Source of the DNA: Turicibacter faecis
Lineage (GTDB): Bacteria; Bacillota_I; Bacilli_A; MOL361; Turicibacteraceae
Assembly: GCF_037076425.1 (NCBI RefSeq)
Contig: NZ_AP028127.1
Span: 1,022,001 to 1,086,000 of the forward strand
Direction of reading: 5' to 3'
DNA length: 64,000 bases
The position numbers and the translations under genes are program-made. Below, in pieces: positions 11,048 to 53,340 of the stretch. The notes under the pieces were generated by a model. The model worked only from the letters and a program-made list of their open reading frames with translations, did no database searches and was not told the origin of the DNA. Numbering within the stretch: the stretch's first letter is position 1; every line of letters starts with the position of its first letter.

Positions 11048-13795
11048 GTGTCGGTCATTAAACATTTGGCAAATGAAGCAAAATCAGCTAACATCGCAGA
11101 ATCAGCTAACATTGTTGTTACAGATTTGAAGACAGGTTTAACGAAACAAGAAATCGAAGCATTACGATCGCAACATGGTGCAAATGAATTTACAAAGCCA
11201 AAAGAGCGTGGCCTATTTTGGGAGTTATTTGATGTATTTAAAGAGCCGTTAATGGTGATTTTAATTATTGCCAGTGGACTTAGTTTTCTAGTCGGTGAGT
11301 ATCAAGACGGTATTGGGATTTGCATGGCCGTGTTGCTAGGAATTATTATCGGGCGTGTAACAGAGGGACGCTCGAAAAAGGCGGCAGAGTCATTGGCGAA
11401 GATGACAGAGGATGTATTAGTCACTGTTTTACGCGATGGAAAGAAACAAAAGGTTCGTAAAACAGATATTGTTCCAAATGACCTTGTTTATTTGGAAACA
11501 GGGGATATGGTTCCAGCCGATGGGGTTGTCCTTGAGTCAACAGATTTAAAATTACGTGAAGATATGTTAACGGGTGAAGTAGATCAAGTTAAGAAGGACA
11601 AAGAGGATTTAGTTTATGGAGGGACTCTGGTCGGAAATGGACAGGGACTTATTCAAATTGTTAAAATCGGGGATCAAACCGAGATGGGGGCAATTGCTAA
11701 AGATCTCAATCAAGAGGAACAGATGACGCCACTTCAATTAAAATTAGGAAAGCTTGGGCAGATTATTTCGTCGATTTCCTCAGGGGTTGCGGCGATTCTA
11801 TTTGTCTATATGTTAATCCAAATTTTAAAGGATAGTCATATTCAATTAGAGTTTTCAAGTTTTGGTGCCTTTATTGATTCATTAAAAGAGGTTCACTTTG
11901 TGTTTCCAAGTATTAAGACAGCCTTTATTGTCTGTGTAGGATTAATTGTTGCGGCAGTACCGGAGGGATTACCGACGATGGTTAATATTACATTAGCTAT
12001 GACAATGGCGAAAATGGCGAAAATCAACGTCTTAATTCGTAAAAAAGAGGCTTGTGAAACGATTGGTTCTGTTAGTGTGATTTGTAGCGATAAAACAGGA
12101 ACATTAACAGAAAATAAAATGAAGGTTGGAAAATTATTTGCCAACGGTCATGAAACGCTATTTAAAGAAGTGAATGACTATCCATTACTTGTAGAGAACT
12201 GTTTAGTGAATAGTTCTGCTGAAGTTGAGTTCAATGGAACACATCATAATTATTTAGGGAATCCAACTGAAGGAGCAATCATTGCCATGGTGAATAACCC
12301 AAGTTATCAACATGTGCGTGAAAAAGCAAATATTGTGTATCAAATTCCATTTGCTTCTTCAAATAAATATATGTTAACGGTGACCAAACATTCGATGAGT
12401 TATCATATTTTATCAAAAGGTGCACCGGAGGTTATTTTAAAACAATGTAAGAGTGAATTAGTAGACGGGAAAATTCGTCCGTTAACAAAAGTGCGTGAGC
12501 AGGCAATATTAGATCAGATGAAAGAACTTCAATCGAATGCAATGCGTATTATTGCATTTGCATCAGCGGAAACAACGCGTAAAGAGGACTTCATGAATAA
12601 AAAACAATGGTTCCATCAACTGACGTTCCAAGGGTTTGTCGGAATTAATGATCCATTACGCGAAGGGGTAAAGGAGTCAATTGAATGCGCACGTGATGCA
12701 AGAATTGAAACAAAGATTTTAACGGGGGATAATATCCATACAGCAATTGCAATTGGAAATGAAATTGGAATCTTAACGCCGGATAAACGAGCAGTTGAGG
12801 CAAGTTATATCGATGGATTAACGGATGAGCAATTACGCGAAGAGGTAAAGAGTATCGCTATTGTGGCAAGATCGATGCCAAATACAAAGATGCGTATCGT
12901 TTCTGCTCTTCAAGAGAATGGAGAGGTTGTTGCCGTCACAGGTGATGGAATCAATGATGCTCCCGCATTAACGAAGGCGGATGTCGGAATCGCTATGGGA
13001 ATTGCCGGAACAGAAGTTAGTCGAAATGCAGCAGACATTATTTTAACGGATGATAGTTTTAATACGATTGTTGAGGCGATCAAGTGGGGACGTGGAATTT
13101 ATAATAATTTCCAACGCTACTTACAATTCACTTTAACTGTTAATATTATTGCTTTCTTACTGACGATTATTTCGCAATTATTAGACCAACCGTTGCCATT
13201 TACAACGATTCACTTACTGTGGGTAAATATTATTATGGATGGTCCACCGGCGCTAGCGTTAGGATTAGAGCCTGTCCGTCAAACGGTGATGAAGCGTAAA
13301 CCAACGTCTAAAAATGCAAGTATTATCAATCGTTTAATGATTAATACGATTGTTATGAATAGTATCTTTATGATCCTAGTGTTGCTCGCTCAGTTGAAAT
13401 ACAACTTCTTAGGAGCTAATTTAGATCATGTCACACATGGAGCAAGCGAAGGACAAACGGTGATTTTTAGTTTATTTGTAAGTTTAGTTTTATTTAATGC
13501 CCTTAATTGCCGTGAATTTGGATTAGTGAGCATTTTCAAAAACTTCTTAAAAAATAAAATTGCCTTGTTAATTTTAGCCGGAACATTCATTATTCAGGTG
13601 ATTGTGACGCAATTAGCAGGAGGTTTCTTCCATACGGTTCCATTAAGTGCCGTGATGTGGCTTAAAATCGTAGCAGTAGGTTCAACCGTTGTTTTATTTA
13701 ATGAAATTTTAAAATGGGTGTTACGATTAATTAATCAGACACGTCGCCGTGTTCGTCGAGCGAAAAAACGTCGCGTCGCAACGACAAATGCTTAA
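11048..13795 (+). CDS. P-type Ca2+-transporting ATPase (PMCA-like, type II)
   Basis: About 915 residues, full length. The actuator-domain TGE lies in MLTGEV (~173-178), the phosphorylation site is Asp of CSDKTGTLTE (~347), PEGLP is in the fourth helix (~303), and the hinge is VTGDGINDAP (~630). TM6 has WVNIIMDGPPALALG, the NxxxD calcium-site pattern of PMCA-type pumps. It exports Ca2+ across the cytoplasmic membrane. The C-terminus is strongly basic. The start is odd: GTG 11048 overlaps the AGAAGG ribosome site, and an in-frame ATT at 11057, followed by Lys, is better spaced. Confidence 0.9.
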   Translation: MSVIKHLANEAKSANIAESANIVVTDLKTGLTKQEIEALRSQHGANEFTKPKERGLFWELFDVFKEPLMVILIIASGLSFLVGEYQDGIGICMAVLLGIIIGRVTEGRSKKAAESLAKMTEDVLVTVLRDGKKQKVRKTDIVPNDLVYLETGDMVPADGVVLESTDLKLREDMLTGEVDQVKKDKEDLVYGGTLVGNGQGLIQIVKIGDQTEMGAIAKDLNQEEQMTPLQLKLGKLGQIISSISSGVAAILFVYMLIQILKDSHIQLEFSSFGAFIDSLKEVHFVFPSIKTAFIVCVGLIVAAVPEGLPTMVNITLAMTMAKMAKINVLIRKKEACETIGSVSVICSDKTGTLTENKMKVGKLFANGHETLFKEVNDYPLLVENCLVNSSAEVEFNGTHHNYLGNPTEGAIIAMVNNPSYQHVREKANIVYQIPFASSNKYMLTVTKHSMSYHILSKGAPEVILKQCKSELVDGKIRPLTKVREQAILDQMKELQSNAMRIIAFASAETTRKEDFMNKKQWFHQLTFQGFVGINDPLREGVKESIECARDARIETKILTGDNIHTAIAIGNEIGILTPDKRAVEASYIDGLTDEQLREEVKSIAIVARSMPNTKMRIVSALQENGEVVAVTGDGINDAPALTKADVGIAMGIAGTEVSRNAADIILTDDSFNTIVEAIKWGRGIYNNFQRYLQFTLTVNIIAFLLTIISQLLDQPLPFTTIHLLWVNIIMDGPPALALGLEPVRQTVMKRKPTSKNASIINRLMINTIVMNSIFMILVLLAQLKYNFLGANLDHVTHGASEGQTVIFSLFVSLVLFNALNCREFGLVSIFKNFLKNKIALLILAGTFIIQVIVTQLAGGFFHTVPLSAVMWLKIVAVGSTVVLFNEILKWVLRLINQTRRRVRRAKKRRVATTNA

Positions 13796-13816
13796 TTAAT
13801 GTCCATGACAAACAAA

Positions 13817-13851
13817 AAACCAACTCTTCATTATGAGGAGTTGGTTTTTTT
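13817..13851. terminator. terminator shared by convergent genes
   Basis: AACCAACTC / GAGTTGGTT hairpin with A-run before and T-run after; it lies between the ATPase gene and the sulfotransferase gene on the other strand. Confidence 0.8.
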
Positions 13852-13861
13852 GATGGCAAGA

Positions 13862-15808
13862 TTAGAAGGTAACAGATTGATGGAGCGTATAAAGGGTGCC
13901 ATCAATTTCAAGGTAAAGTTCATAGGTTCCTGATAATCCCGCTGCGTTAATATACTTAGTGACGCTTAATCGATCGTTGTCCTTAATCTGCTCTTTATCA
14001 AATAAATCGACACACATGGCTGAGTAAGCTTTGCTAGATACTCGAATATCATAGACCTTCTGTTCTCCAAGTTTATTTAAAATGAGTTTCACCTTTTGCC
14101 CTTCATGGAAGTCCCCTGTAAAAATAAGACGATCAGGTTCTTTAGATAGTTTAATTGCATAAGTGTCATCGGTTAGAGCATTAGCCTGATTGAGATGTTT
14201 TACTTTAATAGGAAGGGTTGGTGTTTCTCCTAAAGTTCCGCGTATTTCTCCAGGTGTAAGGGAGTAGCTAAGATGGGGTGGATAAAGACTCATTTTTGAT
14301 GCTCTATAAAAGTGGGCCGGTAAAGTGAGTTCGAAAATGGTTTCTCCATTTTTAACTTCTACGGTTTGACTTGAAAGTGTCGGGTGATCATAGAAGAAGG
14401 CCGGTTGGTTCGTCGCCACCCCGTTAACTGAACCAATTCCTCCTGAATGAACGAGGTAATGATCGGTTTCTAACTCGTCGATTTCAGAGATATAAGGGGA
14501 GTAAAATTCACTTCCACGCTCTTTTCCAAATTGAAAGGTTTGTTCAATCGTCATGTCCTGAGGATTGAGATGGTAGACAACGCCCCGTGAGTAATTGTTC
14601 GGAGCAGGGAGATAGGTGAACGGATCTTTTGAACGGTTATTTCCGTTATCAAATAGGGCTAAATCTCCATTGGCTAGAATTTTAGCGGAGTGTTGCGACC
14701 ACTGCCATTCAAAATCATCACCGATAGGGGTAAAGAAGTAAGATTGCATGTCATCTGGCCAACCCGTAGGATCACCAACAATCCACTTTAGCTCCCCTGT
14801 GTCGTAATCCAAATAGACCACTGCATCTTGGTGACGTCCCGATAAAACGATGGCACGGTTGGCTTCATCATAGGCTACCGAATTATTATGGAACCAATCT
14901 TCTTTCGTCCAGTTTTCGCTTTTAGCGGCTTCCATCGGTAAGATTTTTGTTAAATCCCATGTTTTAATGATTTCTCCCGTTTGACGATCAACTTCGACAA
15001 TTGCATCTTCAACGGTTAATGCATGCGGTGTATTGGTAGCAACTAAAAAGTTTCCGTTGGGTAATTCAATGGCGTCATGATGGTAGCCTCCGGGTAATTG
15101 ATAGTCAACATAAATTTTTCCGATCAAATCCATTTCAACAAGTCCCGTCATATAGTAAGGAGGAGCGCTTGTTCGATCGGCACTTAATAGGAGATGCCCA
15201 TTATTAAGACGAGATACCTCCCAAATATTTTTAGTTGTTAAGAACCAACGAACATCCCCGTTTATGTCGTAGGCAGCCGTATAGCCAGTAGAAGCAGGGG
15301 TCAGAAAATAAAGGTCATTCCCTAATTGTTGACGATCGGCAGACGTATGGGTTGGTAGGGGGAAATCAGCAGGAAGGGGATCAGTTTGAAGTTCAATGGT
15401 TTGTGTTTTTTCCTCGCCGAGCGTTAAGGTAACTTGATTTAACGTATCTGCATATAGCCCATAAACTGGAATTAAATGGGAGGTTGTTGCATCAAAGGTA
15501 TGGGTGAACGTTGTTTGTTCATCCTTCCCTTTAACGGTCAAGGTCACCGGTTGGGCTTCGTCGGTATGAAAGGCAATTAAGGCAGAAAGCGGTGCATTGC
15601 CGTAGGGATTTAAGCTAACATAAGGGGATTCAAATGTATAGGTCGTGTTTTTTAATGTCTCACTAAGCGTTTGGTCAATCTGGTGTTGATGAGACATAGT
15701 ATGATCGATTTCCTCAACCGAAGGTGATTTTTGGTTGAAGAATAGTAAGCATACTCCAATAAGCAAGGCGATTCCGCCTAATAAATAAAGTTTTGTTTCT
15801 CGTTTCAT
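13862..15808 (-). CDS. arylsulfate sulfotransferase (AssT family)
   Basis: 648 residues. Transfers sulfate between phenolic compounds without PAPS, through a sulfo-histidine intermediate. After an N-terminal membrane segment (~8-24) comes an Ig-like domain and then the six-bladed propeller. The active-site segments of characterised AssT are all visible: YHHDAIEL, WFHNNS, SGRHQD and QWSQHSAKIL, the last with the His that carries the sulfate (~372). Probably anchored outside the cell. No DsbL/DsbI partners accompany it, unlike in some Proteobacteria. In gut bacteria such enzymes could act on sulfated phenols; that use here is inference. Confidence 0.88.
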   Translation of the reverse strand: MKRETKLYLLGGIALLIGVCLLFFNQKSPSVEEIDHTMSHQHQIDQTLSETLKNTTYTFESPYVSLNPYGNAPLSALIAFHTDEAQPVTLTVKGKDEQTTFTHTFDATTSHLIPVYGLYADTLNQVTLTLGEEKTQTIELQTDPLPADFPLPTHTSADRQQLGNDLYFLTPASTGYTAAYDINGDVRWFLTTKNIWEVSRLNNGHLLLSADRTSAPPYYMTGLVEMDLIGKIYVDYQLPGGYHHDAIELPNGNFLVATNTPHALTVEDAIVEVDRQTGEIIKTWDLTKILPMEAAKSENWTKEDWFHNNSVAYDEANRAIVLSGRHQDAVVYLDYDTGELKWIVGDPTGWPDDMQSYFFTPIGDDFEWQWSQHSAKILANGDLALFDNGNNRSKDPFTYLPAPNNYSRGVVYHLNPQDMTIEQTFQFGKERGSEFYSPYISEIDELETDHYLVHSGGIGSVNGVATNQPAFFYDHPTLSSQTVEVKNGETIFELTLPAHFYRASKMSLYPPHLSYSLTPGEIRGTLGETPTLPIKVKHLNQANALTDDTYAIKLSKEPDRLIFTGDFHEGQKVKLILNKLGEQKVYDIRVSSKAYSAMCVDLFDKEQIKDNDRLSVTKYINAAGLSGTYELYLEIDGTLYTLHQSVTF

Positions 15809-21737: not shown

Positions 21738-21935
21738 ATGACAGGAACAGTTAAATGGTTTAACGCAGAAAAAGGATTTGGATTCATTTCAGTTGAAGGT
21801 GGAGACGATGTATTCGTACATTATTCAGCAATTACAGGAGAAGGATTCAAAACTTTAGAAGAAGGACAAAACGTTTCTTTCGAAATCGTTGAAGGAAACC
21901 GTGGAGCTCAAGCTTCTAACGTTGTTAAATTATAA
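21738..21935 (+). CDS. cold-shock protein, CspA/CspB family
   Basis: 65 residues, exactly the family length. [20 protein letters not shown] and DVFVHYSAI contain the RNP1 and RNP2 nucleic-acid-binding motifs. It acts as an RNA chaperone and single-stranded nucleic-acid binder. The frame opens earlier (21711), but TGGAGG places the start at 21738. Strong terminator after the gene. Confidence 0.95.
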
Positions 21936-21956
21936 TTAAACGTTTAAAACGTTGCT

Positions 21957-21994
21957 AAAAAGGTTAGCATCCCTCATGGGTGCTAACCTTTTTT
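21957..21994 (+). terminator. intrinsic terminator
   Basis: AGGTTAGCATCC / GGGTGCTAACCT hairpin and T6. A second C5/G5 hairpin follows at about 22003-22022. Confidence 0.85.
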
Positions 21995-22218
21995 ACTTAG
22001 GCCCCCGTTTAAAAATGGGGGGAACTTTTCCATCTGGTATCAATAACCTTAAACAGTTTGATGCATCATCGTCGATCACGTCCTCTTTAGTTGGGTAAAA
22101 ATATAGTAATGGGTTTAGGGTCTGTATTTATTAGGATTTTTTGAGATTAGTTTTCAACGCATGAAGAAGTCAAACTAAATAAATTTAAGTATCTATTGGG
22201 ATAAGTAGACGTCTACCT

Positions 22219-22389
22219 ATGAGTGGGGGAGTTATTTCAACAGAAGGATTTTTTCTAAAATATGATGGAGGAGTGACGAAGAAGGAAAACTCCATAATGG
22301 GTGTAAGTAGGGGACGAGGTCATTATAAAATTCCGCTTAGAATAAATAACAGACTTGAAATAGCTAAACTGATACTGAAAAGTAACTAA
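22219..22389 (+). CDS. doubtful 56-residue ORF
   Basis: Open frame with an ATG three bases after a 12-bp palindrome; no ribosome site before it. The product is basic (KIPLRINNRLEIAKLILKSN at the end) and matches nothing I recognise. It may be a gene fragment rather than a live gene. Confidence 0.2.
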   Translation: MSGGVISTEGFFLKYDGGVTKKENSIMGVSRGRGHYKIPLRINNRLEIAKLILKSN

Positions 22390-22595
22390 GACTGAGTGTT
22401 GTTCTATATTAAAAAAACCGAACAGATCAAAATTAATCGAGTAAGTTAAAAGAAAGACTGTAAGGATACATCCATTCATGATATAGGAGGGCCCCTTAGT
22501 TTAAGAGACGAACGCAAAGATTCCAATAGGAGATTTTTTAAACGATTATAAAATCATCACGACTGTTTAATGGTGTTTAAATGAAAATAAAGTAC

Positions 22596-22628
22596 AAAAA
22601 AGCAGGCGTTAATCGCCTGTTTTTTTTA
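22596..22628. terminator. isolated terminator-like hairpin
   Basis: CAGGCG / CGCCTG with TTAAT loop, preceded by six A and followed by eight T. No annotated gene ends here, so it may close a small RNA or a lost gene. Confidence 0.7.
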
Positions 22629-22897
22629 ATGATAATCCCCTTTAAGGAAGGGGGGGATTAGGTTTTTCCTGCTAATAAATGATGAACGGTGATAGAAAAC
22701 ACTGCCTTTGTCTAAAAAAGGAGGTGAATAAAAGGGGCATCAATGGTCGATAATTTAATGAGACATGCGTGTATGATTTTTGTTTAAAGATTCGTTATCA
22801 ACGAGGAACTAAAATTCACTTGAAAAATAAAGTGGGCATATACATTTTATGGTGAATTTGATAAAATAAAAGAATCTGACGAGAGAGGGGGATTTTT

Positions 22898-25432
22898 ATC
22901 AAAATATTAATAACCGAGCTATTTTTGAGTCATATTCCGACGGGGAAGACGGCATTTGTCTTGCAAAAAATGAGCCAGTTTGTGCAAGAGTATGAAGCAT
23001 CAAAGTTTAACATGTCTTCGATGCGAGCTGGGGTATCTGTTCGTGAAATTAAACATAATAAAAATGGCTTACGAATTTTTAAATTACGAATTAATAAAGG
23101 CGATCGGTTGTTGTTTACCTTTGATACGATGCGAATCCGCCCTGAATATCGCCAATCCATTATTTTTTTAGATTACTGTCATCACGATGATCAAGCGATG
23201 CAAGGTCGAACCATTGGGTTACATTCACAAGACGTTTTGGAATACGAACCGATCGAAGAGCGCATTGAACTTGAAATTGACCAGCGTTACGCAGATTTTG
23301 ATTATGATCCTAATCGAGTGATTACCCGAGTGATGGATGTTCAAACGATGGCTCAACTTCTTGATGATCGTGAAGATCGGGCTGTTTATTATTTAAATGA
23401 TGAACAGTTTGCGTGTTTAAAAGAACAGGATGCCCCGACCTTTATTTTTGGAAGTGCGGGCAGCGGGAAAACAACGATTAATATACATAAGGCTTTTATC
23501 TTGGCAACCCAACCGATGAACATCGGATACTTTACGTACTCGAACTATTTAGTGGAGGATGCTAAGAAGTTATTTCACAAAATTATTGAACAGTCACCCG
23601 AATATCGAGCCGATGACCTTATTCGACGTGTGAATTTTCATCCCCTTAACGAGTACATGTCGGCCACCATCAATCAGTATAATGTTGTCACTTACGAACA
23701 GTTCCGGACGTGGATCATCGAGCGTCAACCACTCCTTCTTCGTCAACTCGATCTCCCGATTTATGATATTTGGAAAGAAATACGTGGGCTGATTAAGGGA
23801 ATGATTCCAAAAGAGTGGCTGACCTATCGTGTCAATATCCATCAAAAAAAGATACCGATGGACCTGGTCGATGTATTAATCCAAAAAGGATTAGCGAAAC
23901 GAAGCGGGGACGATCTTCAACTCCAAGCTGAAAAACTCTACGCAGCGAAAGCAAGATTTTTAGATGCTTATGAAACACGGGCGATTTTGTTAATGCATGA
24001 ATTGCTCGATGAATATTTACTCACCCATCCAATGATTGACGAAAACATTTACTACGCCCTTGATGAACAATATTGTGTGTATTCGAGGCAATCTCGCGAA
24101 TGGTTATATGAGTTAACTTTACGTTATCAGGCATTTCTACAAGAAACCGGGCTACTTGATGAAAATGATCTGGCGCGTGAATTTTTAAAAAAAGTTAGTC
24201 AAAAAGAGATGGCTTTGTTTGATTTTGTGATTGCCGATGAAATTCAAGATTTAACAGAAATTCAAATTTATTGTTTAATTCGCCTCGCTAAAAATAAAAA
24301 TCAACTGTTATTTAGCGGAGATATTAATCAAACAATTCGCCCGACGTATTTTCATACGGGACGAATTGAAAGTTTATTAAAAACATCGAATACGCATCTT
24401 GGGTTTATTAAACATCAATTGATTAAAAATTACCGAAGTACGAAAGAAGTTGTTGATTTGGCCAATCAAGTGGTCGACTTGCGAGTCGAACACCTTGGGC
24501 GTCAAAAGAAACATGATTATCATGAAGTTGCCGTTCGTGAGGCTAAACATTCGATCTATTATTTTAATCCCGCCCAACCTAAAGAAGTCATGCGATTACT
24601 TGAGACGGCGATTCAACGTCATTATGTGGCAATCGTTGTTCCAAATGAAGCGGAAAAACGTAATTTTCAACAGTTAACCCAATTAAAAGGGGCGATTTTC
24701 ACGGTTGAAGAAATTAAGGGGATTGAAAAGGACTATATTATTTGTTACAACGTAATGAGTTATTATCACAAAGAATGGGAACGAATTTTAACAACAGATG
24801 TAAAATATCAAAATCAATATCGATATTATTTTAATCTTCTATATGTTGCGCTCACGCGCGCGAGACATCATTTGTGTTTCATTGAGGAAAGGGTGCCCTC
24901 ACTTCTTTTTGAATATTTTCGTCCGCACTTTTTAATGTTTGAGGCATTTGATGAGGCGGAGTTGAAGTTAAATCAAATTTCAACGGATAATGAGTTTTAT
25001 AAAGAGGCGAAACGATATGAAGCGCATGAGTTATATGAGCAGGCGATTTTAGAGTATGAGCGCTCGAATCTTGCAGGAGCTGATCAAGATGTGAAGCGAT
25101 GCCGGGCGTTAATGTTAAATAAGGAAGGTCACCACTTAGAGGCCGGTCACGCCCTTATGCAGTTAAAGGCATACGAGCTTGCAGCGAAATGTTATCGTCA
25201 GGCGCAAAATCAGCTACTGTATTTAAAGGCACGGGTTTTTTCCGATATTCCGTTTCAAACGCTAAAAGCAGAGTTTGAACAGGAAGGGATTGATTTAGTA
25301 TCGTTTGTCTATGACCGAGAGGAGCCCATTAGTTGGGTGAAACGATTTAATCGTCTCTACATGAAATACGTGTTTGAACAAATGAAAGGCATCAATCGAA
25401 TGATAGACACGATAGAGAAAATGAAGGGGTGA
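22898..25432 (+). CDS. RelE/ParE-like domain + SF1 (UvrD/Rep-type) helicase + TPR-like C-terminus
   Basis: About 844 residues. The first ~110 residues end in KLRINKGDRLLFTFD, the strand pattern of RelE/ParE toxins. An SF1 helicase core follows with all motifs: GSAGSGKTT (~184), ADEIQDLT (~447), SGDINQTIR, LIKNYRST, EIKGIEKDYI and LLYVALTRARHH (~650). From ~700 the repeats resemble TPRs (YEAHELYEQAILEYERS, YELAAKCYRQAQNQ). The first conventional codon is TTG 22925, without a ribosome site; GAGAGGGGG at 22883-22891 points to ATC 22898, which adds a beta strand (KILITELF) fitting the RelE fold. Five bases separate it from the coiled-coil gene. An ATP-driven nucleic-acid enzyme, possibly defence-related; role unproven. 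Confidence 0.75.
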   Translation: MKILITELFLSHIPTGKTAFVLQKMSQFVQEYEASKFNMSSMRAGVSVREIKHNKNGLRIFKLRINKGDRLLFTFDTMRIRPEYRQSIIFLDYCHHDDQAMQGRTIGLHSQDVLEYEPIEERIELEIDQRYADFDYDPNRVITRVMDVQTMAQLLDDREDRAVYYLNDEQFACLKEQDAPTFIFGSAGSGKTTINIHKAFILATQPMNIGYFTYSNYLVEDAKKLFHKIIEQSPEYRADDLIRRVNFHPLNEYMSATINQYNVVTYEQFRTWIIERQPLLLRQLDLPIYDIWKEIRGLIKGMIPKEWLTYRVNIHQKKIPMDLVDVLIQKGLAKRSGDDLQLQAEKLYAAKARFLDAYETRAILLMHELLDEYLLTHPMIDENIYYALDEQYCVYSRQSREWLYELTLRYQAFLQETGLLDENDLAREFLKKVSQKEMALFDFVIADEIQDLTEIQIYCLIRLAKNKNQLLFSGDINQTIRPTYFHTGRIESLLKTSNTHLGFIKHQLIKNYRSTKEVVDLANQVVDLRVEHLGRQKKHDYHEVAVREAKHSIYYFNPAQPKEVMRLLETAIQRHYVAIVVPNEAEKRNFQQLTQLKGAIFTVEEIKGIEKDYIICYNVMSYYHKEWERILTTDVKYQNQYRYYFNLLYVALTRARHHLCFIEERVPSLLFEYFRPHFLMFEAFDEAELKLNQISTDNEFYKEAKRYEAHELYEQAILEYERSNLAGADQDVKRCRALMLNKEGHHLEAGHALMQLKAYELAAKCYRQAQNQLLYLKARVFSDIPFQTLKAEFEQEGIDLVSFVYDREEPISWVKRFNRLYMKYVFEQMKGINRMIDTIEKMKG

Positions 25433-25437
25433 GATGA

Positions 25438-26145
25438 ATGGATCGTGAGTTTTTAGAATTAATTCAGACGTTTGATCGAGCAGCGGGACGTCTAGAAACA
25501 CTGGAAGAAACGATTTTAACGTTTAATGATGTCATAGAAAAGTTGCATCATCATTTAGACGAATTACTTGAACTTGTTTATTTAGATAATATTGTGACAT
25601 TAGCGGAACAAAGTAATCAAAAACTGGGACAATTGAATCACCATTTAGATCAAGTCGCTAAAACGTATGAATCGCTTGTGCAGGTGAAGCAATTGATGAA
25701 TGTCCACGCATTAGAAAATGAAGAGGGGACGTTGACATCGGTTGAAGATAAGCAGTATGTCTACTATGTGGTGTCGGAAACGAACCAAGTGATGGCAGTC
25801 AAAAAAGAAATGGGTGGTTATCACGGGCCCGTTCATAACCTTATTTCTAAAAAATTGGTGCAGGCGAACCAAATGGCGTTTGCTTTACGTGAGGAAACAG
25901 GTGAGGTCGTCTTATTACAGGGACCACAACTCGCGATGACATACCCACTTGAGGCGACTGACTTTACTATTTTTGGTTATGAACTGTATTATCTAACGGA
26001 ACAAACCGTAAAGAAATTCCATTTATTAACCCAGGAACAAACAACACTCCTAGAAGGCGTGTGCGCCATAAGGAGCAAAAAGGGCGGGTTATGGTGTCAA
26101 TCCTTTGATGGGACGCCCCAGTTCATTCCTTTTGCATCTATGTAG
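25438..26145 (+). CDS. coiled-coil protein, partner of the helicase
   Basis: 235 residues. The first ~95 are strongly heptad-like (LETLEETILTFNDVIEKLHHHLDELLEL and onward), predicting a long coiled coil; the remainder looks like a beta-rich domain (YVYYVVSETNQVMAVKKEMG, VVLLQGPQLAMTYPL), perhaps propeller-like. No family recognised. GGGTGAGATGA overlaps the end of the helicase gene and acts as its ribosome site, so the two genes form one operon, with a repeat cluster starting 5 bases after the stop. A protein-protein partner role is inferred from this coupling. Confidence 0.65.
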   Translation: MDREFLELIQTFDRAAGRLETLEETILTFNDVIEKLHHHLDELLELVYLDNIVTLAEQSNQKLGQLNHHLDQVAKTYESLVQVKQLMNVHALENEEGTLTSVEDKQYVYYVVSETNQVMAVKKEMGGYHGPVHNLISKKLVQANQMAFALREETGEVVLLQGPQLAMTYPLEATDFTIFGYELYYLTEQTVKKFHLLTQEQTTLLEGVCAIRSKKGGLWCQSFDGTPQFIPFASM

Positions 26146-26150
26146 CTAAA

Positions 26151-26307
26151 GGCAAAGAGCTAGGAACATTTATAAATGGCAGGGAACCTTTGCCCTAGTA
26201 GTTAAGGGTATGCATGGGCTTTGCCACATGCACTAGGGAATCCAAGCCTTAGTAGACGAGGATAACTAAGAGTTCTTTATGCTCACACCTTAGCGTAGGG
26301 GACTCGG
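26151..26307 (+). repeat. cluster A of structured repeats (three units)
   Basis: Three tandem units: 26151-26188 (partial), 26192-26243 and 26246-26307. They share the frame GCCCTANNAGNNGAGGATA - hairpin - NNAGGGRAYYC with the cluster at 35675-36022. Hairpin stems differ in sequence but stay paired: the 26192 unit has TGCATG-GGC/GCC-a-CATGCA, the 26246 unit has CTAAG/CTTAG. The outer CCCTAG/CTAGGG pair is perfect in the 26192 unit. They lie just after the coiled-coil gene. Confidence 0.8.
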
Positions 26308-53085: not shown

Positions 53086-53340
53086 CAATAGTAAAGATGA
53101 TGATAAGAAGGAGTACATTTAAGCGATCTTTTTAGCGAGCTGATGAGGGTGAAAATTCAGTAAGAGTCATTAAATGGAAGCAGTCTTTGAATTGCGCACT
53201 GAGAACTAAGAATTTTTCTTAATGTAGGTGTTGCCGGTTGCCCACGTTACGGGTGTCGAGTGGGTCATCGCACGATGACTTATGAGGGTGGTACCGCGAA
53301 GTTGTCCTTCGTCCCTTTTGGGATGAAGGCTTTTTTTATT
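53086..53340 (+). ncRNA. T-box leader
   Basis: Contains the T-box core GAGGGTGGTACCGCG (53284-53298), followed by the terminator CCTTCGTCCC / GGGATGAAGG + T7 (~53306-53338). A Stem I-like region includes AGCGAGCTGATGAGGGTGA with a CTGA/TCAG arm at ~53138-53166. Uncharged tRNA binding would favour the antiterminator and expression of the downstream regulator and aminotransferase. I could not settle the specifier codon by eye. Confidence 0.9.

Follow-up and report, generated by a model that had tools for sequence, protein, structure and literature searches.

The window, a stretch of 64,000 nucleotides of the Turicibacter faecis genome, carries two adjacent genes, the first of which (ORF1) appears to join a RelE-like RNase fold, a complete SF1A helicase and TPR-like repeats in a single chain, while the second (ORF2) encodes a coiled-coil protein. 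The RelE fold and the SF1A helicase are known building blocks; what appears to be new is their combination in one protein with a coiled-coil partner gene. A first-pass annotation made from the letters alone had noted that no described system is known to have this exact pair, and we likewise found no description of a RelE-UvrD fusion in the open-access papers searched. As far as this literature goes, the architecture appears to be undescribed. We tentatively favour, with less than even confidence, the view that the two proteins form a helicase-gated RelE-type RNase or a ribosome-docking or ribosome-binding surveillance complex resident in Turicibacter. The features are listed in Table 1.

Table 1. 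Features of the two-gene locus (positions in the window)
Feature	Position	Strand	Residues	Basis or remark
ORF1, RelE-fold / SF1A helicase / TPR-like protein, 844 aa	22898..25432	+		start ATC (AUC) 22898
Predicted RelE-fold domain	22898..23191	+	1-98	AF2 model, Foldseek PDB matches, alignments
Invariant R70 (codon)	23105-23107	+	70	alignments A3 and A7
Near-invariant H96 (codon)	23183-23185	+	96	alignments A3 and A7
SF1A (UvrD/PcrA-type) helicase core	23366..24862	+	about 157-655	Pfam, motif positions, PcrA in PDB
Walker A	23450-23473	+	185-192	
DEIQD	24236-24250	+	447-451	
Motif VI	24842-24862	+	649-655	
TPR-like C-terminal repeats (approximate extent)	24977..25267	+		TPR_1 E=0.034
ORF2, coiled-coil partner, 235 aa, 5 bp 3′ of ORF1	25438..26145	+		ORF call, heptad score, conservation
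ORF2 long helix / coiled coil	25444..25713	+	3-92	AF2 model, heptad score
ORF2 C-terminal domain, fast-evolving, beta-rich, beta-propeller-like (low confidence)	25762..26130	+	109-231	AF2 model, dN

Both reading frames turned out to be real and conserved. The start of ORF1 is unusual, as its frame contains no ATG, GTG or TTG from the upstream stop codon to a TTG at 22925. The window and the sister species G002 have ATC at 22898, three sister species and one more distant relative have ATG at the same codon, and relatives read ATG-Lys-Ile-Leu from there. A GGGGG Shine-Dalgarno sequence precedes the codon. Codons 2-9, which encode the first strand of the RelE fold, differ only synonymously between the window and G002, so this stretch is translated. 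Together with the ATG of the relatives, this makes initiation at AUC likely in both species and bears out the position at which the gene had first been placed. The AUC codon is possibly a translation-control feature that lowers expression, similar to the near-cognate start of infC.

The claim of a complete SF1 helicase also held. ORF1 matches the Pfam UvrD-helicase family (E=8.7e-16), has the whole set of SF1A motifs I-VI (further motifs are GDxxQ at 474-478, NYR at 511-513 and motif V at 604-610), and its closest solved structure by sequence is PcrA (PDB, E=1.8e-7). The TPR-like repeats are weak in ORF1 itself and clear in a relative (TPR_2 1.2e-9), and strong TPR or ankyrin matches are found at the tail position in relatives, the type of repeat varying by branch.

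RelE toxins are usually small, free-standing proteins under antitoxin control. Searches of Pfam, NCBIfam and PDB sequences did not recover the RelE family for the N-terminal domain of ORF1, and a structure search was therefore needed. We modelled residues 1-119 with AF2, using four sequences only; the resulting model, of medium confidence (mean pLDDT 69.7, pTM 0.65), displays a beta-alpha-alpha-beta-beta-beta-beta topology. A blind Foldseek search of this model against the PDB returned RelE-superfamily toxins, including YoeB, YafQ, HigB and RelE, as nearly all of the 35 best matches, with TM-scores by target length of ~0.46-0.65 (0.60-0.65 for the top matches). The N-terminus is thus predicted, with medium confidence, to have the beta-alpha-alpha-beta4 fold of microbial RNases, in line with the RelE/ParE-like segment proposed earlier. 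At the same position, two cyanobacterial relatives gave sub-threshold profile matches to a HigB-like toxin (0.012) and YoeB (0.023), and hhalign aligned the ORF1 N-terminus to RelE-type profiles with E-values of 0.008-0.04 and low probability.

For the comparison of catalytic residues we used RelE R61/R81/Y87 and YoeB E46/R65/H83/Y84. RelE R61 stabilises the transition state, and E46, R65, H83 and Y84 of YoeB are essential, with H83 acting as the general acid (PMC2807027, PMC12620021). In the hhalign alignment R70 of ORF1 lies opposite YoeB R65 and RelE R61, and H96 sits after the last strand, placed like YoeB H83. In alignments of relatives, R70 is kept in 14 out of 14 sequences and H96 in at least 90%. 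The position of the YoeB general base E46 shows no conservation across the family, so the catalytic outfit would be only partly present. The domain is also the most constrained part of ORF1 and shows the strongest purifying selection. Comparing the window with G002 gives a dN of 0.039 for the RelE domain, as against 0.085 for the tail and 0.100 for the SF1 core (dN alone was compared because dS is near saturation), and identity is 98% in the RelE domain and 85% in the SF1 core.

The non-conserved general base, the medium confidence of the model, the low hhalign probability, the lack of a partner gene beside relatives outside the class and the usual work of UvrD-type helicases, which is on DNA, count against an RNase engaged in surveillance, and a helicase of this type fits a role on DNA at least as well. 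ORF1 could be a UvrD-like translocase working in DNA repair or replication, with the RelE fold as a non-catalytic module for docking to the ribosome, RNA polymerase or gyrase. The SF1A/UvrD motif set, the core conservation in Turicibacter and the general base that is not conserved agree with this, as does the operon of the relative G197, which comes after AddB-AddA-like genes. We nevertheless consider it unlikely, as the arginine and histidine at the RelE/YoeB catalytic positions are near-invariant over six phyla, beyond what a docking surface would need.

Regarding ORF2, the AF2 model shows a single helix of 90 residues, and the heptad score of the protein (0.77) exceeds the 99th percentile of a background of 131 ORFs (0.55). 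We found no meaningful match of its family in Pfam, PADLOC, NCBIfam or PDB, which accords with its first description as a tightly coupled coiled-coil protein of no known family, and the model was too poor to assign a fold beyond the helix and the beta-rich tail. The two genes are 4-5 bp apart in each of the five Turicibacter species. Among members of the class, a coiled-coil gene is next after the ORF1 relative in each of the 15 cases examined, at -35 to +5 bp, and 13 of these partners score above the background 99th percentile. In Turicibacter the C-terminus of the partner is beta-rich and evolves fast (dN between the window and G002 is 0.30, as against 0.14 in the helix). It varies in kind across the class: the G114 version is transmembrane-like, and others are rich in lysine. 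As the G114 partner (L111 10868-11710) ends in transmembrane-like helices, it may tether its helicase to the membrane. Co-occurrence of the two genes, named in the first-pass annotation as a point to check, thus holds in the class members examined but not outside the class: no partner gene was found beside the relatives in Clostridia, Fusobacteria, Cyanobacteria, Deinococcota and E. coli, and the partner is therefore not obligatory.

This distribution also bears on the question whether the locus is a strict toxin-antitoxin pair, in which a RelE-domain toxin is joined to a helicase and the coiled-coil protein is the putative antitoxin. A two-gene operon with such close spacing and a dedicated partner would suit this, but the partner gene lies downstream, where upstream is usual, and is not found with so many of the relatives; moreover, ORF2 has no DNA-binding domain match and the antitoxins of the RelE family look different. 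A pair of this kind is very improbable.

The gene order NhaC-cspA(-MATE), the pair, AIM24 is shared by all five Turicibacter species. Identities to the window for G002, G004, G001 and G003 are 86, 69, 67 and 63% for the helicase, 95, 86, 85 and 81% for AIM24 and 88, 84, 82 and 82% for NhaC; the ranking of the helicase is that of AIM24 and largely also that of NhaC. Judging from these comparisons, the pair is inherited vertically in the genus. The locus had been called a typical accessory location, but the synteny of the pair across the five species contradicts this for the genus. Among the neighbours scanned in Turicibacter there were no defence-specific genes, only a generic ABC ATPase match. 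An accessory site beside defence genes or mobile elements is thus not what we see in Turicibacter, and is seen in part in distant relatives.

The gene-poor stretch before ORF1, given at first as 880 bp, is real and measures about 960 bp (21935-22897). It is mostly species-specific, the gap between cspA and ORF1 being 232 bp in G002, and a MATE transporter fills this position in three other Turicibacter species. About 730 bp of the gap is extra non-coding sequence, of which 190 bp resemble a single place in G001 (76% similarity). No remnant of a MATE gene is left there, and searches for an RNA gene gave sub-threshold chance matches only. On the other side, the supposed repeat cluster proved to be one diverged copy of an interspersed repeat of about 125 bp (26179-26303), which matches two further places in this genome, and also places in other Turicibacter, at 77-83% identity; the tandem-repeat finder detected no tandem array. 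Elsewhere in the window, a T-box leader was recognised at 53091-53319 (114.6 bits).

We found full-length relatives, in which the helicase follows immediately after the RelE-like domain, in Turicibacter and elsewhere in its class, and outside the class in Paraclostridium, Cetobacterium, E. coli, two cyanobacteria, Thermus and Deinococcus, so that the fusion is present in at least six bacterial phyla. Among 22 relatives compared, partly by eye, a recognisable RelE-like domain is missing only in G520. The family is rare and patchy (14 of 395 class genomes). Cousins in E. coli, found in 111 of 5426 genomes, are accessory and located on islands or plasmids, the islands carrying AlpA, inovirus Gp2 and CP4-type toxin-antitoxin genes. 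The cousin of strain 1105 (L094 12049-14894), an ankyrin version, is annotated as frameshifted and adjoins a contact-dependent inhibition locus. The ORF1 family had no match among 50,697 phage records, which speaks against a phage origin of the pair, and a set of viral contigs gave one useful relative only (L068).

We also searched the neighbours of distant relatives using PADLOC. The G135 relative adjoins TmtA/Tiamat (753 bits) and PDC-S41, and other listed neighbours are Vsr (G266), a SoFic-like gene (G197) and a Mokosh-like helicase (G205); these are raw occurrences, uncorrected for a background rate. At L054, a large SF1 helicase with a DUF2726 nuclease-like domain (12540-15584), Mokosh-like by PADLOC, lies a few genes 5′ of a relative of the pair, and a resolvase and an IS3-type transposase are found in the same stretch. 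The relatives in G266 and G474 share synteny, and that of G520 is situated among housekeeping genes. For the pair itself PADLOC has no model and gave generic helicase-core matches only.

The first-pass annotation had proposed a possible defence module, and the pair could be an antiphage module of the abortive-infection type, in which phage DNA or replication intermediates, once sensed by the helicase, would trigger release of the RelE-type toxin, with the coiled-coil protein restraining or assembling it. The defence-related neighbours and the islands of some distant relatives, the patchy spread and the fast-evolving partner C-terminus point indirectly in this direction. In Turicibacter, however, the pair is a core gene set, vertically inherited in the same place among non-defence genes, an outcome that the annotation itself had named as refuting its proposal; some relatives are in housekeeping or genus-syntenic loci as well, and a PADLOC model is lacking. 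An antiphage module is rather doubtful, and we rank it below the surveillance complex and above the DNA helicase with a docking domain, which in turn comes before the strict toxin-antitoxin pair.

In the surveillance complex that we favour, ORF1 and ORF2 would act as one unit, in which an SF1A translocase bears both the RelE-fold domain and the TPR-like repeats and is held or anchored by its dedicated coiled-coil partner. Recognition or anchoring of the complex could fall to the TPR-like tail and the coiled coil. On meeting an abnormal nucleic-acid structure (a stalled mRNA or ribosome, an R-loop or invading DNA), the helicase would engage it and hydrolyse ATP, and this step might unmask the RelE-type site. 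That site would then act at the ribosome by cleaving mRNA or rRNA, or would at least dock there. In Turicibacter such a complex would be a resident stress or surveillance factor, possibly with intrinsic phage resistance, rather than mobile defence cargo. More broadly, we regard it as possible, though clearly short of probable, that the family represents a class of helicase-gated RelE nucleases that is widespread and so far undescribed, in which an SF1A translocase with its own RNase responds to aberrant nucleic acid by cleaving RNA, under control of the coiled-coil partner in Bacilli and as a resident immune or quality-control complex in Turicibacter. The interest of the family is that a motor protein contains a RelE fold whose RelE/YoeB-like arginine and histidine have been retained across at least six phyla, and that it has a constant coiled-coil partner in one class. 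Should the domain prove active, it would tie translocation along nucleic acid directly to the cutting of RNA in bacteria, would recall the helicase-nuclease RNA surveillance of eukaryotes and would be open to testing in a genus common in the gut.

Among known systems, the best PADLOC match of ORF1 is GajB of Gabija (63.6 bits, residues 345-574), also a UvrD-like helicase, and the match is limited to the generic helicase core. Unlike Gabija, the pair has a RelE-fold domain in the ORF1 chain, a coiled-coil partner and no gene for a GajA-type (OLD) nuclease; no GajA match was found among the neighbours scanned, and the locus is not counted as Gabija. With the ribosome-dependent mRNA interferases RelE, YoeB, HigB and YafQ it shares the predicted fold of residues 1-98; it also has an arginine equivalent to RelE R61/YoeB R65 and a histidine placed as H83 is in YoeB. 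It differs from them in being joined to a helicase without a classical antitoxin and, from YoeB, in the lack of a conserved E46-type general base, its RNase activity being only putative. ORF1 has the full motif set of the UvrD/PcrA SF1A DNA helicases, although its score is far under their equivalog cut-offs, and departs from them in the N-terminal RelE-fold domain, in a long insert between motifs I and II and in the TPR or ankyrin tail, which in the ORF1 family replaces the Tudor tail of PcrA.
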